From positions 1 to 44,956 of the forward strand of contig JAADHJ010000036.1 of the NCBI GenBank assembly GCA_013151915.1: a DNA stretch of 44,956 nucleotides, given 5' to 3'. Origin of the DNA: Deltaproteobacteria bacterium. Its GTDB lineage: Bacteria > BMS3Abin14. A program made the translations under genes and the position numbers. Every line of letters starts with the position of its first letter. The stretch's first letter is position 1. Shown here one piece after another: positions 10,865 to 36,405 of this stretch. The notes beneath the pieces were generated by a model. That model did not search any database and had not been told where the DNA came from. It saw nothing but the letters and a program-made list of their open reading frames with translations.

Positions 10865-11332
10865 TCAGATGTTATACGTGTACGGATGGTCGTACTCCCT
10901 CTCTACACCCAGATCTTTTGCCTCATTGCAGAGGTTGGCAATGGTAATGGTGTCGAAGAACTTCTCGATCTGCCCGCTGATCTTGGCCCACATGACCGTC
11001 GCGACGCAGTCATCTTTACGTGGACACTTCCTGCGAGAGCTATCGCCGACGCAAAAGACCAACTCAAACGGGCCTTCCGTAGCACGGATGATGTCGCCCA
11101 TGGTAATCTGGGACGGTTCTTTCAGCAGAAAATAGCCGCCGCTCGGCCCCCTCTTGCTCCCCAGGATGCCGGCCTTTTTGAGCTTCTGAAAAATCTGTTC
11201 CAGATACCTCGGGCTGATCTGCTGCCTTCTTGAAATATCCTTGATCTGTGACGGAAGCCCGACGGAGTGATATGCAATGTCGAACAGGGCTCTGACGCCA
11301 TAACGGCTCTTGGTAGAAAGTCTCATGGACAA
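10865..11332 (-). CDS. Rrf2-family regulator, IscR-like with cluster cysteines
   Basis: 155 residues: an N-terminal winged helix (MRLSTKSRYGVRALFDIAYH, then ISRRQQISPRYLEQIFQKLKKAG and GPSGGYFLLKEPSQI) and three cysteines spaced C-x8-C-x5-C (FCVGDSSRRKCPRKDDC), as expected for a [2Fe-2S] sensor of the IscR/Rrf2 type. It probably represses genes of Fe-S or cysteine/sulfur metabolism. The marked start is a TTG that is correctly spaced from a G-rich ribosome binding site; ATG at 11326 is the alternative. There is no isc operon next to it; its neighbour is larE, itself a sulfur-transfer enzyme. Confidence 0.85.
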   Translation of the reverse strand: MSMRLSTKSRYGVRALFDIAYHSVGLPSQIKDISRRQQISPRYLEQIFQKLKKAGILGSKRGPSGGYFLLKEPSQITMGDIIRATEGPFELVFCVGDSSRRKCPRKDDCVATVMWAKISGQIEKFFDTITIANLCNEAKDLGVEREYDHPYTYNI

Positions 11333-11581
11333 AATAATCCCCCCTTTTCAGTTATTATCCAACCACGAAGGGTATTTTCTTCCATTTAATTCGTCAAGCA
11401 CATTTTCAGGCTCCCGAAACCAGGGTCTTGTATCCGGGGGTCCAGGACACTTCGATACATCCATATCTTGATACCTCCACACTCCCATACCACCTTTTCG
11501 TCCCCCGCGTCCGCTTCTCCTCTCTGGACACTGGACTCTGGACTACTGGACCCTGGACTCTGGACTAACTATATTCCGCTT
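11333..11581. repeat. Repeat-rich gap with a CTGGACT heptad array
   Basis: The 249-base gap between nfi and the Rrf2 gene has no gene. At 11524-11566 six heptads occur (CTGGACA, CTGGACT, CTGGACT, one extra A, CTGGACC, CTGGACT, CTGGACT), the complement of TCCAG-type units. Before it, 11505-11523 repeats the CCCGCGTCCGCTTCTCC module seen at 2258-2275, and 11450-11492 resembles the ACTTCCATATTCCCAC module near 3905. So it is a second composite of the same short-repeat modules. Confidence 0.75.
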
Positions 11582-12235
11582 CTACTCCCGGGTAAGTTTG
11601 TGGGCGAGTCTGGTCGGCTCCGGCAATCGATAGCCTTCCAGACACATCATGGTACCCTTCAGCGCATCCTCCGGATCGAGGAGGTGGCCCGGAGAAATAT
11701 AAATGGGCCTGCACCCCTTTTTTGATCTCACCACATATCCCACAAGCCTCTCCCTTATTGTCAAAGGTTCATATCCACCAACCCTGTACCCTGGATCACG
11801 GTGTTCTCCCACGAGACGGCTCTTGGCACATCCGATGGTGGGAATACCGGTAAGGATTCCGATGTGGGAAGCCAACCCCAGGCCTCTGGGGTGTGCTATT
11901 CCCTGTCCATCTACGATGATCGCATCCGGTGGCGGCATCCGGCGCAGAACAGGCAGGAGAGGTGGAACCTCCCTGAAGGATAAAAGGCCCGGGATATAGG
12001 GAAACATGGTCTTTCCCTCGTGTCTCAATGATAGGATTTTTTTGAATTCCGGGATTGTCAGGAGGATGCCCGCCGCGATAAACCGGCCGGTGGATCGCTG
12101 GTAGGAAACATCGATTCCCAGTACGGTTTTCAACTGTGGAAGTGGTCCACCGGTGACCATTTCCGCCATTTCCAGCTGGATATGACGCGCCTCCCCCGGA
12201 GTCAGGTCCCATCTGTGAAGGGATTGAATATCCAT
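11582..12235 (-). CDS. nfi: Endonuclease V
   Basis: About 217 residues from ATG at 12235 (MDIQSLHRWDLTPGEARHIQ). Endonuclease V nicks DNA (and RNA) one base 3' to deaminated adenine (inosine). The family signatures are present: GIDVSY with its catalytic Asp, YIPGLLSFREVPPLL, VDGQGIAHPRGLGLASHIGI with Asp and His of the metal site, and PTIGCAKSRLVG. The frame extends upstream to a TTG at 12283 with its own AGGA, so the true start is uncertain. It stands alone between a repeat-rich gap and the PAP2-like gene. Confidence 0.93.
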   Translation of the reverse strand: MDIQSLHRWDLTPGEARHIQLEMAEMVTGGPLPQLKTVLGIDVSYQRSTGRFIAAGILLTIPEFKKILSLRHEGKTMFPYIPGLLSFREVPPLLPVLRRMPPPDAIIVDGQGIAHPRGLGLASHIGILTGIPTIGCAKSRLVGEHRDPGYRVGGYEPLTIRERLVGYVVRSKKGCRPIYISPGHLLDPEDALKGTMMCLEGYRLPEPTRLAHKLTRE

Positions 12236-12311
12236 AGGGGTCGTTCCCGTTACGGATCGAGAAGGATCGGATGGAAAGGACAAGATGTCCTGTTCCCGGA
12301 CTGTGAAATCG

Positions 12312-13163
12312 CTAAAACCTGTAAACGACTTTTACCCCTATGGCATGAGACGCGCCTGCAACAAACATCGGGGCAAAACTCACCGATCCATTATCGTCAG
12401 GTGAGGACAGATAGGCGACTGTTCTTCCGATAGCGGTACCCAATATTGCCCCAAGGAACACGTCTGAAGGCCATGCGTCCTCGAAGTAGACCTGGGCGAG
12501 CCCCACGCCCGTTGCCACTGCGTAGTACATTATCGAAGAAAAGGTCCCCTGGCCATAAGCAAGCACGCTGACGGTGGAAAAGGTCAGCGCAGTATCCATA
12601 TTCGGCATGGATCCGAAGCCGGAAAAGGGTTTGAAATTCTGGGGGTCGTCAGCCGATCCGGGGCCGTTTCTCCCAAGTACAAACTCGGCAGCCCCTCCAA
12701 AAAGGGCTGTCAAGGCAGCGGCCTCCAGGCTCATGAGGGCGCCCGACTTGATATTCATATCCTCCATAAGGTACCCGACCAAATAAGCGCCTGCGGTAAT
12801 CTGAACGATATAATTCCCGAGGTCATTAAAGGCATCGTAATAATCACTCTGGAAATTATCCCCCCTGCCGGAGATGTCGCCCAGCACCTCCCCGTCGTTG
12901 TCCAGAAGAAAAAAGGAGGTTAGAAGGGTCATCCCAAGGGCGGCAGTCCCTTTGGGGGTAAGGCGAAATGGTGAGGAAGCAACGTAATGAAGGTCATTAT
13001 CCAGTTTCTCCATTATGAGTTCGAAAGCCGGATTGAGACGGTTCGGTCCCACGGCCGGTTTGATGATCCTCAAGGTACGCCCGGAAGGTTCGCCTCCATC
13101 CGCCCGCGACACCAACGGGGATACCAACATGGCGGCCAGGAAAAGAACAATAAAGGATCTCAT
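12312..13163 (-). CDS. Exported PAP2-fold protein lacking catalytic residues
   Basis: 283 residues. The N-terminus is a signal peptide (MRSFIVLFLAAMLVSPLVSRA) and the C-terminus ends in aromatic-rich strands (VKVVYRF). The central region follows the PAP2 phosphatase layout: VLGRNGPGSADDPQNFKPF, then GSMPNMDTALTFSTVSVLA where active enzymes have PSGHTA, then LAQVYFEDAWPSDVFLGAIL where active enzymes have SRVYxxxHW. Thus the motif-2 Ser and His and the motif-3 Arg and His are all replaced. It is probably a non-catalytic descendant, possibly envelope-located. The stop overlaps nothing, but the start overlaps the DUF502 gene stop by four bases (ATGA), so the two are coupled. Confidence 0.65.
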   Translation of the reverse strand: MRSFIVLFLAAMLVSPLVSRADGGEPSGRTLRIIKPAVGPNRLNPAFELIMEKLDNDLHYVASSPFRLTPKGTAALGMTLLTSFFLLDNDGEVLGDISGRGDNFQSDYYDAFNDLGNYIVQITAGAYLVGYLMEDMNIKSGALMSLEAAALTALFGGAAEFVLGRNGPGSADDPQNFKPFSGFGSMPNMDTALTFSTVSVLAYGQGTFSSIMYYAVATGVGLAQVYFEDAWPSDVFLGAILGTAIGRTVAYLSSPDDNGSVSFAPMFVAGASHAIGVKVVYRF

Positions 13164-13822
13164 TGAAGCGGCTCTTCAGCTGAACGGACGGGGCCGGGGC
13201 ATTGATTCGCCTCGGTGGGTAGAATAACGCCGGCTGAAACCACCATTCGAAAGGCATCCTCAACGCTCCAGCTCAGAGGGATTGTTTCCGTCTCCGGAAC
13301 AATGTACAGAAACCCTGACGTCGGGTTTGGAGTGGTGGGGATGAAAACGGTCAAGGAGGGGCCGGGGACTTTCCGATCCACCTCTCCTTTCGATTCACCC
13401 GTCACAAAGCCGACGCTGTACAGGCCTTTTCTCGGATATTCAATGAGGACAACGCGCCGGAAGCTGTCTCCTTCCTTCGCGAAAACGGCCTCGAGGATCT
13501 GTTTGGATGAAAAGTAGAACCACCGGACAATGGGGATCTTTTCCAGAAGCTTCTCCCCTGTGGCGAGAAACTTCCTCCCGATCACATTGGCGACAAACGC
13601 CCCAAGGACAAACACGAGCAGAAATGATATCAACATTCCCAAACCGGGAATGTTGAATCCGATCAGGGTCTCAGGGCGATAGGCGCGGGGAATCAAAGCC
13701 AGCGCCTTATCGGTAATTCTGAAAAGGGTAATGAGGACCCATCCGGTCAAAAACACCGGGATGAGAACCAGGAACCCGGTCAGAATATATTTCCGGATCA
13801 GAGTCTTTAGCAGGGCAATCAA
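13160..13822 (-). CDS. DUF502 family membrane protein
   Basis: 220 residues of the DUF502 family. Two hydrophobic segments (YILTGFLVLIPVFLTGWVLITLF and LGMLISFLLVFVLGAFVANVIG, each about 20-23 residues) precede a conserved region with IPIVRWFYFSSKQILEAVF, RRVVLIEYPRKGLYSVGFVTG and the family signature VFIPTTPNPTSGFLYIVP. The start is a TTG behind a strong AAGGGGGAG ribosome binding site. The function is unknown. It is transcribed away from groES and its stop overlaps the start of the PAP2-like gene. Confidence 0.88.
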   Translation of the reverse strand: MIALLKTLIRKYILTGFLVLIPVFLTGWVLITLFRITDKALALIPRAYRPETLIGFNIPGLGMLISFLLVFVLGAFVANVIGRKFLATGEKLLEKIPIVRWFYFSSKQILEAVFAKEGDSFRRVVLIEYPRKGLYSVGFVTGESKGEVDRKVPGPSLTVFIPTTPNPTSGFLYIVPETETIPLSWSVEDAFRMVVSAGVILPTEANQCPGPVRSAEEPLQ

Positions 13823-13919
13823 GGAACTCCCCCTTATTATTGAGAATTATTCAGCCATTCTATCGGAATAACCGAAATTTAATCAAGGCCTGATAATTCA
13901 GGATTTTTAATCCACCCCC

Positions 13920-13947
13920 TTGATTTTTAAAAACAGCTGGTTATATT
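13920..13947 (+). promoter_or_regulatory. Probable groESL promoter
   Basis: A -35 box TTGATT (13920-13925) is separated by 16 bases from a -10 box TATATT (13942-13947), about 145 bases before the groES start. The CCCCCTTGAT context also partly fits a heat-shock sigma factor -35, but no CCCAT-type -10 is present, so I read it as a housekeeping promoter. Confidence 0.55.
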
Positions 13948-13959
13948 CCCACCGAGCCG

Positions 13960-13977
13960 GCACTCAAAGGAGAGTGC
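13960..13977 (+). promoter_or_regulatory. Inverted repeat in the groESL leader
   Basis: GCACTC and GAGTGC are separated by six bases, just downstream of the putative promoter. The arms equal the inner arms of the CIRCE operator bound by HrcA, but CIRCE has a nine-base spacer and TTA/TAA outer bases, which are absent. It may be a diverged operator or a leader hairpin. Confidence 0.45.
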
Positions 13978-14091
13978 AAATCCAACGGATGAGAACCGGT
14001 GAGCGGGACATCCTGTCTCGGCTAACAGCGCGAAGGAGAAGGAAGGATTCACAGCGACCTTTATTTTGAATTGTAAGGAGGAGAACGCAAG

Positions 14092-16057
<1,966 letters not shown>

Positions 16058-31027: not shown

Positions 31028-31588
31028 TTATCTGACACGCTCGATATATTCACCGGTCCGGGTGTCGATTCTGACAACCTGTCCCTCTTCGACGAAAAGA
31101 GGTACCTGAATGACGGCCCCGGTCTCCAGCTCCGCCGGCTTGGTCGCCCCGGATGCCGTGTCGCCCTTTACCCCGGGCTCGGACTTGGCGATTTTGAGCT
31201 CGACGAAAATGGGGAGTTCCATCCCAATCGGCCTCCCGTTATATATATGAACGATGACGGGTAACTGCTCTGACAGAAACCCTTTTTTATCCCCCAGGTC
31301 CGCGCCGGAAATACAGATCTGATCGTATGTGTTTGTGTCCATAAAATGGAAACCGTTATCATCACCGTACAGATACTGCATTTCTTTCTCTTCAAAGTTG
31401 GGCCTTTTCACCTTGTCGCCCGATCGGAAGGTCCGATCCAGGACGTTTCCGGTAACCAGGCTTTTTAGCCTGGTCCTTACAAATGCACCGCCCTTGCCTG
31501 GTTTTACATGCTGGAAGTCAGCGATAGTGAAAGGCTCGCCATCCAACTCTATTTTTAATCCCTTTCTGAACTGATTGGTAGCAATCAA
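31028..31588 (-). CDS. efp: Elongation factor P
   Basis: 186 residues. EF-P relieves ribosome stalling at polyproline. The N-terminal domain carries KPGKGGAF with the lysine (residue 32) at the position modified by beta-lysylation in other bacteria; two OB-like domains follow with the C-terminal [21 protein letters not shown]. The start is TTG (TTGATTGCTACC) behind GGGAGGAGAGGA; its first bases overlap the aroQ stop TGA. Genes for EF-P modification (epmA/epmB) are not in the window. Confidence 0.96.
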
Positions 31589-32052
31589 CAGTCCTCTCCT
31601 CCCGTTGGGTGTATTTTATCCAGGATCTGCGCAGCCCCCAAAAGGGCAAGGGTATACCCGAATGGTCCGAAACCGGATACGATACCGGAAGCTCCTTCGG
31701 AAACGAGGGACCTTCGTCGAAAATCCTCTCTTGATTGAATATTCGAAATGTGAACCTCAAAATAGGGCAGGCCCACGGCCGTGAGGGCGTCCCGAATAGC
31801 GACACTGGTATGTGTATAGGCCGCCGGATTTATGATGATCGCCTCGAAGCCGTTCCCGGGCGCTCCCTGAATGGTATCAACGATGTCGCCCTCGTGGTTG
31901 GATTGGAAAGCAACAACCTCCAGGCCTTCCTGTCCGCCTCTCTCCCGGAGCTCGGCGTGGACCTCATCGAGGCTGGCAGATCCATAATATTGCCTCTCAC
32001 GGTTTCCAAGGAGATTGAGGTTCGGACCCTGGACAATGAGAATTTTTCTCAT
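31585..32052 (-). CDS. aroQ: 3-dehydroquinate dehydratase, type II
   Basis: 155 residues from ATG at 32052 (MRKILIVQGPNLNLLGNRER) behind GAGG. It is the third step of the shikimate pathway. Visible are the start QGPNLNLLG, the catalytic FQSNHEGDIVDTI, INPAAYTHTSVAIRDAL, and VEVHISN-like FEVHISN. The open frame further upstream is not homologous. It overlaps efp by a TTGA. Type II enzymes are dodecamers unrelated to AroD. A decayed hairpin repeat supplies bases just upstream. Confidence 0.95.
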   Translation of the reverse strand: MRKILIVQGPNLNLLGNRERQYYGSASLDEVHAELRERGGQEGLEVVAFQSNHEGDIVDTIQGAPGNGFEAIIINPAAYTHTSVAIRDALTAVGLPYFEVHISNIQSREDFRRRSLVSEGASGIVSGFGPFGYTLALLGAAQILDKIHPTGGEDC

Positions 32053-33806: not shown

Positions 33807-34889
33807 TCAATCACCAATGCCCATCCGAATGAGGGTGTCAACCAGCATTCCGACATCTTCCAGGGAAGCTATTTTAGCCTTGCCGATCTCACTGATAAGG
33901 ACGGCCATGATTTTTCCGCCGACGATTTTTTTGTCCCTCGACATGAAGCCCGCGAGGTCAGACGCATTAACGGTTCCGGGAACCGGGATCCTGTCCACAA
34001 CAGCCAACGCCCTCCTCATTTCCGGCCTGGAAAGTCCACCTATCTCGCCTGACAGCAGGAGAGCCCCCTTCATCCCAAGCGCGACGGCTTCACCGTGGCG
34101 GAAGGTTCCGTACCCGGAGGACGCCTCCAAGGCATGGGCAAGGGTATGACCGAAGTTGAGAACCCTCCTCGGGCCGGATTCCCTCTCATCTTCCTCCACA
34201 ATCTCAGCCTTTCTAAGGCAGGAAACGGTTACAATCCGCACTGCATCCACACCGCCGCGAGGTCCGAGATCCTCGTATCCCTCAAGGTAAGCGAACAGGC
34301 GCCGATCAAGGGCCAGGGCCATTTTCACAACCTCCGCCATTCCGGAGAACCAGTCGCGATCATCCAGTGTTTCAAGAACATCGGTGTCAATAAAAACGGC
34401 CTCAGGCTGGTAGAAGGTTCCCACCAGATTCTTGCCCTCCTTGATATTTATTCCGGTTTTACCCCCGACACTGCTGTCAACCATTGCCAGGAGAGAGGTG
34501 GGAAGCTGGATCAACCCTATTCCCCTGAGATAAAGGGATGCCGCCAATCCAGCCAGGTCTCCAACCACCCCACCGCCCATGGCAACGACAAGATCTCCTC
34601 TTTCCAGGCCCAACAGGGCCATTCTTCTGCACAATCGCTCAACTTCGAAAAACGATTTGCTCCCCTCACCTTCCGGAACAGTGTGGAGATCAATTTCAAA
34701 AGAAGTGCCGGCCAGAATCCTGTCAATACGCTTCCCGTATTGGGAACCGACCCGCTCATCGGTTACCACAATGAGCCGGGATCCTGTCTTTCTCGCCCCT
34801 AGAAAATCCGGAAGACCATCCCACGCTCCGGACTGGACCATGATCGGGTAGGTCCGGGAACCAAGCTGCACCTCCATGGTCCCGATCAT
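33807..34889 (-). CDS. aroB: 3-dehydroquinate synthase
   Basis: 360 residues. It forms 3-dehydroquinate from DAHP, using NAD and zinc. Key segments are VAMGGGVVGDLAGLAAS, IQLPTSLLAMVDSSVGGKTGIN, the metal site GMAEVVK, LNFGHTLAHALE and FRHGEAVALGMK. It starts overlapping the stop of the degenerate aroK frame (ATGA); MEVQLG at 34877 is an alternative start. It follows aroC and the aroK remnant in the usual order. Confidence 0.97.
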   Translation of the reverse strand: MIGTMEVQLGSRTYPIMVQSGAWDGLPDFLGARKTGSRLIVVTDERVGSQYGKRIDRILAGTSFEIDLHTVPEGEGSKSFFEVERLCRRMALLGLERGDLVVAMGGGVVGDLAGLAASLYLRGIGLIQLPTSLLAMVDSSVGGKTGINIKEGKNLVGTFYQPEAVFIDTDVLETLDDRDWFSGMAEVVKMALALDRRLFAYLEGYEDLGPRGGVDAVRIVTVSCLRKAEIVEEDERESGPRRVLNFGHTLAHALEASSGYGTFRHGEAVALGMKGALLLSGEIGGLSRPEMRRALAVVDRIPVPGTVNASDLAGFMSRDKKIVGGKIMAVLISEIGKAKIASLEDVGMLVDTLIRMGIGD

Positions 34890-35251
34890 CGCTTGCCAAC
34901 CTCGCAGAAAATCTCTCCGCGCTGTTTTGCGAGGCGGGGAAGGGCTCCCCCTCCCCCGCCATTTTTTTCACTATCTCGTCTGTAACCTGTGGAGGGGGTG
35001 AGGGCATCCGTGTCGATTATCAAATGGGCCTCCTCATAGATTGCGGAACGCTCACGCAGCATTGCGGGAATAAAATCCTCGAGGGCAACCCCTTCAAGGA
35101 GAGGCCTTAGGGCCGATTCGATCCGCCGGAAATGGTTCTCCCCGAGCCGGGCGAAGATCCGAACGATGGACATCCCGGATCGGCGGACAATCCCATCATC
35201 GAGATCCACGAAAATCTCTCCTGTGCGTTGGGCAAGAAAAACCGCACTCAA
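34886..35251 (-). pseudogene. aroK: Degenerate shikimate kinase between aroC and aroB
   Basis: The frame has the inner shikimate kinase segment LAQRTGEIFVDLDDGIVRRS (matching xLAxxxGxxFxDxD), GMSIVRIFARLGENHFRRIE, then jumps to RPLLEGVALEDFIPAMLRER and YEEAHLIIDTDALTP, the C-terminal part. The P-loop GxxGxGKS is absent, and the central piece holding the GGG shikimate-binding motif is missing (about 45 residues). After DALTP the homology (PPQVTDEIVKKMAG) continues in another frame, across a run of five C (34994-34998). The three lesions together argue for a pseudogene, though the last could be a sequencing error. Confidence 0.75.
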
Positions 35252-36405
35252 AGGCTTTTAACGTAATCCTGGTAACTGTTGAAATTTCGATGCATCTCCT
35301 CCAGGGAATCTCCACCGAATTTCCGACACATATGCTGGGCGAGTACAAAGGCGATGACAGCCTCCGCAATGACACAGGCCGCCGGGACCGCCGTAACATC
35401 GGATCTCTCAACAGCAGCGGACGTTGGCCTTTTGCTGAGAAAGTGAACTGATGAAAGAGGCGAAGCGAGCGTCGGGATGGGCTTCATGGCTGCTTTTATC
35501 ACGATGGTCTCGCCGTTGGAAACCCCTCCCTCAATACCCCCCGCCCGGTTGGTTTCGCGGAAAAATCCCTTTTCTCCCTGAAAACTGATGGGGTCGTGGA
35601 CCTGCGATCCATCCAGGTCAGCTCCGGAAAAACCAAGGCCGATTTCCACCCCCTTGATTGCTGGGATACTCATGACTACCCGGGCCAGTTCGCCATCGAG
35701 CCGCCTGTCCCAGTGGACGTAGCTTCCCAGACCGACAGGGACCCCGAATGCCTGGATTTCCATAACTCCTCCGAGGGTTTCCCCCTCAGATTCAGCCTTC
35801 TCTATCCTTTTGATCATGGCCGTCTCCGACTTCCGATCAATACATCGCACCGGAGAATTCTCAATCTCGGGCCCCTGCTGCGGCCTGGTCAATTTTATCT
35901 TCGAGCCGCCCACACCTCCGATGGAAAGGACATGGCCCAATACTGATATATGGAATTTTTTCAGGAGAATTCTCCCCAGGGCTCCCACGGCCACCCGCGC
36001 GGCAGTCTCCCTGGCACTGGCCCTCTCAAGGACGTTTCGAAAATCCTTGTGAGCGTACTTTATCCCCCCGGAAAGATCGGCATGACCGGGCCGGGGCCGG
36101 GTAACCGTCCTGGCATCAACCTGCCCGGCATCAACGGCCATAACGGTCTTCCAGTTTTCCCAATCCCTGTTGCGAATTCGCATGGCGATGGGAGTTCCGA
36201 GGCTTTTTCCTCCCCTGACACCTGACAGGATCTCTACCCGATCACTCTCTATCTGCATTCTCTGGCCCCTGCCATAACCTTTCTGACGTCGGGCAAGATC
36301 CCGATCAACGGACTCGGCCTCTACAGCGACACCGGCCGGAAAACCCTCCACAATGGCCATAAGCGATTCACCGTGCGATTCACCCGCGGTAAGAAAACGC
36401 AGCAT
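35248..36405 (-). CDS. aroC: Chorismate synthase
   Basis: 385 residues. It makes chorismate from EPSP using reduced FMN. The N-terminal FLTAGESHGESLMAIVEGFP, QKGYGRGQRM, the characteristic RPRPGHADLSGGIKY and ASARETAARVAVGAL, and EGGVSNGETI are all present. The RBS TAGGAGGAATATTAA precedes ATG at 36405, right after the terminator at 36421. The aroK remnant follows after the stop with four bases of overlap. Confidence 0.97.
   Translation of the reverse strand: MLRFLTAGESHGESLMAIVEGFPAGVAVEAESVDRDLARRQKGYGRGQRMQIESDRVEILSGVRGGKSLGTPIAMRIRNRDWENWKTVMAVDAGQVDARTVTRPRPGHADLSGGIKYAHKDFRNVLERASARETAARVAVGALGRILLKKFHISVLGHVLSIGGVGGSKIKLTRPQQGPEIENSPVRCIDRKSETAMIKRIEKAESEGETLGGVMEIQAFGVPVGLGSYVHWDRRLDGELARVVMSIPAIKGVEIGLGFSGADLDGSQVHDPISFQGEKGFFRETNRAGGIEGGVSNGETIVIKAAMKPIPTLASPLSSVHFLSKRPTSAAVERSDVTAVPAACVIAEAVIAFVLAQHMCRKFGGDSLEEMHRNFNSYQDYVKSL

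Follow-up and report, generated by a model that had tools for sequence, protein, structure and literature searches.

A decayed shikimate kinase gene in a deltaproteobacterial aro operon, and an imported AroK-AroB fusion accompanied by a candidate shikimate dehydrogenase

The window, a stretch of 44,956 nucleotides from contig JAADHJ010000036.1 of a Deltaproteobacteria bacterium (assembly GCA_013151915.1, hereafter G000), carries shikimate pathway genes on its reverse strand in the order aroC, aroK remnant, aroB, TPR, roadblock and aroQ. Three of them are intact, as a previous sequence-only reading had held, and exceed their TIGRFAM cut-offs: aroC (chorismate synthase, 35248..36405; TIGR00033, 394 bits, cut-off 212), aroB (3-dehydroquinate synthase, 33807..34889; TIGR01357, 340.6 bits, cut-off 305), and aroQ (type II 3-dehydroquinate dehydratase, 31585..32052; TIGR01088, 186.8 bits, cut-off 169.9). 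Exactly between aroC and aroB lies a reverse-strand open reading frame (ORF) of 121 aa (34886..35251), whose TTG start overlaps the aroC stop codon (35248-35251) and whose TGA forms an ATGA with the aroB start (34886-34889). Its match to the shikimate kinase profile SKI (PF01202) is limited to profile positions 11-53 (12-53 in a second run).

Alignment with the intact aroK (170 aa) found at the same place in the sister species G001, a member of the same genus, revealed three lesions. A 45-bp in-frame deletion (junction at 35236..35237, uncertain by a few bases) has removed the entire P-loop, TGFMGSGKTTVGRIL, and a 159-bp in-frame deletion (junction at 35110..35111, likewise uncertain by a few bases) has removed the GGG motif and its surroundings, leaving the remnant devoid of both the ATP-binding loop and the GGG substrate-binding region of shikimate kinases. 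The sequence-only reading had recognized the missing P-loop and the missing GGG motif, although it estimated the central gap at about 45 residues and the alignment gives 53. The third lesion, at a run of five cytosines (34994..34998, G5 on the forward strand), is a single additional base with respect to G001 at which the reading frame switches, exactly where that reading had placed a frame change. Past the run, the ancestral aroK frame is still readable as ...PQVTDEIVKKMAG, which makes the frame change a genuine feature of this assembly; the extra base could be a sequencing error, in which case both deletions would stand regardless. The 80 surviving codons share 66% identity with G001 AroK, well above chance, the corresponding values being 91% for AroC and 80% for AroB. 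Their ω of 0.29, versus 0.15 for aroB and 0.06 for aroC, suggests mild relaxation and recent decay, although ω is not diagnostic here. Judging from these alignments, the aroK of the window is a recent pseudogene inside a still intact aroC-aroB operon.

The broken aroK may still couple aroB translation to that of aroC. A second aroK remnant, differently broken (P-loop end kept, 3' two thirds lost), occurs in the relative G011 (contig C628, L154:14997-15221), where the remnant ORF also overlaps the aroB start by 4 nt; in G002, aroK is wholly absent from the corresponding place. We make no claim that the remnant has been kept open by selection for translational coupling, since G000 and G011 have an appreciable probability of sharing the overlap by chance and an ORF of this kind is lacking in G002.

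The G000 assembly is 100% complete, with 0.06% contamination, and is split into 60 contigs. Besides aroQ, aroB and aroC in the window, it encodes DAHP synthase, aroA, tyrA and pheA on contig C6, and the only steps for which the native gene is broken are aroK and aroE. The sequence-only reading had reasoned that the pathway requires another kinase, offering among its options a fused enzyme and the archaeal GHMP type. A profile search of the genome retrieved only two SKI matches, the remnant and a full one on contig C44 (C44:47969-48421; Pfam positions 1-153 of 159, E=4e-39), and no match to the GHMP-type archaeal shikimate kinase (TIGR01920). The full match is the N-terminal half of a 530-aa protein continuing into a 3-dehydroquinate synthase, so the fused option was the right one, with aroB as the partner. 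The kinase half retains the P-loop, DxD, FR..E, RPLL and R...Y motifs in the alignment, and has GGR in place of GGG, as do 7/7 type-2 kinases of the family, all fusion members among them. The synthase domain is complete (TIGR01357, 350.5 bits, cut-off 305), and the fusion evolves under purifying selection (ω 0.13-0.14 versus G011). G000 thus possesses a predicted kinase and two 3-dehydroquinate synthases. Such multiplicity is also seen in G002, G004 and G011 (L145, L148 and L153), whose extra 3-dehydroquinate synthases are the fusion and an adjacent aroB2; G002 and G011 additionally keep the operon aroB, and two or three such synthases are kept per genome. We consider it very likely, from domain content and conserved motifs, that this is an ordinary gene displacement in which the predicted kinase of the fusion replaces AroK.

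The fusion belongs to a segment of C44 bracketed by insertion sequences (L142, about 11129-14769), which also contains, 244 bp past the fusion and convergent with it, an intact gene (L142:13762-14745) for a 327-aa zinc-dependent medium-chain dehydrogenase (MDR). Neither the partnership with aroB, nor the origin of this segment, nor the loss of aroE described below lay within view of the sequence-only reading. Compared with G011 and G004, the segment shows 86% DNA identity up to L142 position 13638 and 79-80% thereafter, across the MDR gene. At that alignment junction G000 has no gap, and the intervening 2.7 kb, comprising aroB2, iclR and most of an HMG-CoA-lyase-like gene, are missing, except for a 39-aa scrap of the lyase; the G000 segment thus equals the G011 cluster minus these genes, with one junction. 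Compared with G011 and G004, which belong to another genus (g4), the fusion has a synonymous divergence (dS) of 0.34-0.55 and MDR one of 0.65-0.69, versus 1.8-2.1 for nifS, a strong contrast resting on a single core reference gene and not genome-wide; between G000 and G001, core genes have dS of 0.36-0.81. The segment dS, far below that of nifS, indicates that the segment was imported, and it derives by deletion from a larger cluster. On its two sides lie two copies of an IS3 orfB 3' end in the same orientation (178 nt, 89%), together with remnants of IS200 type; no tRNA-associated island or known RNA element was found at the segment. C44 itself belongs to G000, given that the gene beyond the segment matches G001 DNA at 88% identity and that many G000 contigs carry further copies of repeats located near the segment. 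Short dispersed repeats of about 70-98% identity (L142:6799-7210 and 11370-11660) are found on dozens of contigs in G000 and also in G001. On this comparative evidence, the segment is horizontally acquired in G000.

The second broken step is that of shikimate dehydrogenase. AroE (PF08501) is absent from G000 in a profile search whose control found 14/14, and the G001 AroE used as query retrieved from G000 only a 33-aa piece after ribF. At that place, on contig C50, ribF is followed by the initial 95 bp of aroE, with 88% identity to G001, and then by the aroE-pilB spacer and pilB; the sequence across the deletion is contiguous, and the contig ends about 8.5 kb away. G001 has ribF, a complete aroE and pilB in this order, and aroE is missing between ribF and pilB from G002, G008 and G011 as well.

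The MDR protein encoded beside the fusion shows ADH_N (PF08240, 2.8e-27) and ADH_zinc_N (PF00107, 5.2e-18), the domain search having returned MDR domains alone, with no Shikimate_dh_N domain. Its catalytic and structural zinc ligands are among the invariant residues (C37, H58, E59, C88, C91, C94, C102 and E143), and so is D190, at the acidic end of the second strand of the nucleotide-binding fold. An acidic residue at this strand end in MDRs points to NAD(H), the cofactor thereby suggested for the G000 enzyme. Among solved structures, RspB comes closest (4ilk, E=6.5e-64); an AlphaFold2 model from two sequences was unusable, with a pLDDT of 29.

Close orthologs of this MDR (59-80% identical) occurred within the family only, the best outsider among 290 genomes searched being 38% identical. 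MDR without AroE characterizes eight genomes (G000, G002, G003, G004, G005, G006, G008 and G011) and AroE without MDR two (G001 and G010), and no genome has both. Neither gene was found in G007 and G009 (80 and 81% complete); the latter possesses the fusion, which speaks against MDR as the replacement. The absence of AroE from G006 is uncertain since the aroE locus falls at a contig edge, and assemblies may hide genes, aroC not being seen in G004. At 90% completeness or more, all six AroE-less genomes carry MDR and the single genome with AroE does not, for which a Fisher test by hand gives p of about 0.14 with few genomes, related to each other, a statistically weak contrast if taken alone. 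MDR occurs near aroB in only two family members among 80 other aroB loci.

The gene cluster of G002, G004 and G011 consists of the fusion and aroB2, facing genes for an IclR regulator, an HMG-CoA-lyase-like protein and MDR, with TRAP transporter genes beyond MDR. The operon-like run of MDR with the lyase-like gene and a PcaR-type IclR regulator is shared by G002, G003, G004, G006 and G011, and in G003 it is located 75 kb away from the fusion. In G011 (C482, L153:2-8319), the PcaR-like IclR, HMG-CoA-lyase-like enzyme, MDR, TRAP transporter and a thiamine-diphosphate enzyme are clustered. In G005, lyase and regulator are gone and aroC is directly followed by a type-2 kinase and then by a convergent MDR; this kinase (C8, L149:9443-9976; 177 aa) lacks the synthase half and occupies the old aroK position. 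G008 has an intact classical aroK, no fusion, no aroE, and an MDR (59%) standing alone, so that the association of MDR with aroE loss does not depend on the kinase. Together with the reduced clusters of G000 and G005, this indicates that kinase and dehydrogenase are what shrinkage spares.

We propose that G000 acquired the segment from a relative resembling genus g4, which would have brought in both the fusion and the zinc MDR. The fusion kinase domain would form shikimate 3-phosphate, and aroK would have decayed because this enzyme had been imported. MDR would most likely reduce 3-dehydroshikimate to shikimate, probably with NADH, making native aroE dispensable, and aroE would have been deleted afterwards, in addition to the decay of aroK. 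That the imported pair made both native genes dispensable is, as a whole, the probable course of events. For its dehydrogenase part, the loss of aroE with all other steps kept, and the presence of a dehydrogenase on the same segment, lead us to propose MDR as the replacement; gene content tips the balance modestly toward a candidate non-orthologous shikimate dehydrogenase. We likewise lean, though not strongly, toward a displacement of AroE by MDR across most of the family, MDR having reached G000 with the kinase so that two consecutive steps came in one transfer.

The main rival, which we regard as possible though rather unlikely, is that only the kinase was displaced, MDR being a catabolic enzyme and the shikimate dehydrogenase step being carried out by another, unrecognized protein. 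The company of MDR does look catabolic in the five genomes where it adjoins the lyase-like gene and the PcaR-type regulator, three of these genomes also having TRAP transporter genes close by. Among characterized proteins, it comes closest to polyol and threonine dehydrogenases, without exceeding a curated cut-off for any of them. However, precisely these neighbors are gone or reduced to a scrap in G000 and G005, where MDR persists intact beside the kinase, it is kept under purifying selection (ω about 0.19), and no other oxidoreductase gene was seen on the imported segment. Replacement of AroE by MDR thus remains the reading that we prefer. As for the history of the segment, the wide occurrence of MDR in the family would also fit an ancestor with both sets of genes followed by reciprocal loss, of fusion and MDR in G001 and of aroK and aroE in G000, with no recent transfer. 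We find this improbable: the dS values from g4 are far too low for vertical descent, and the deletion-derivative structure and flanking IS remnants contradict it; even if true, it would leave the functional inference unchanged. Fragmentation of the assembly could in principle point to an artefact, with C44 foreign or aroK and aroE mis-assembled and actually intact, but this is highly improbable given the low contamination, the repeats and the G001-like gene that tie C44 to G000, and the location of both deletions inside continuous, syntenic sequence. In addition, relatives are degraded too, as shown by the different aroK remnant of G011 and the lack of aroK in G002.

Several steps of the shikimate pathway have known non-homologous alternatives. 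To our knowledge, however, the only recognized biosynthetic shikimate dehydrogenases are members of the AroE superfamily, and our literature search, whose coverage mostly left out subscription journals, retrieved no medium-chain dehydrogenase described as a shikimate dehydrogenase; the MDR may be a previously unrecognized kind. A survey of 2856 gut genomes found 30 that lack only AroE, which is not among the steps for which it reported new replacements (PMC9026213), and missing shikimate pathway enzymes and their undiscovered replacements have been discussed (PMC3018139). If the role of MDR is true, AroE gaps in metabolic reconstructions could close, and the candidate is relevant to the use of AroE as a target for antibacterials. 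The two sister species offer a natural experiment within one genus, G000 with aroK and aroE broken and the imported pair, G001 with both genes intact and no pair, which narrows the question to a single small protein.

Among known systems, the fused AroK-AroB is an already known, curated family (NF010627 and NF010556), with which the G000 fusion shares its domain order and both complete Pfam domains. It differs in scoring below the curated bifunctional cut-offs (323 versus 565 bits for NF010627, 237 versus 560 bits for NF010556), in having GGR where GGG is expected, and in coexisting with a stand-alone aroB. The GHMP-type archaeal kinase, not found in G000, is a known non-orthologous replacement of a shikimate step. 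AroE (PF08501, TIGR00507), with its intact ortholog in G001, is the step missing from G000, whereas the zinc-dependent MDR proposed in its stead has no AroE domain. With the polyol and threonine MDRs (PRK10083-type, RspB, Tdh and the scyllo-inosose 3-dehydrogenase IolM), this protein has in common the full-length architecture, the zinc ligands and the NAD-type acidic residue. It reaches none of their curated equivalog cut-offs (best 211 of 376 bits) and, unlike them, sits next to shikimate genes and varies together with the loss of aroE.
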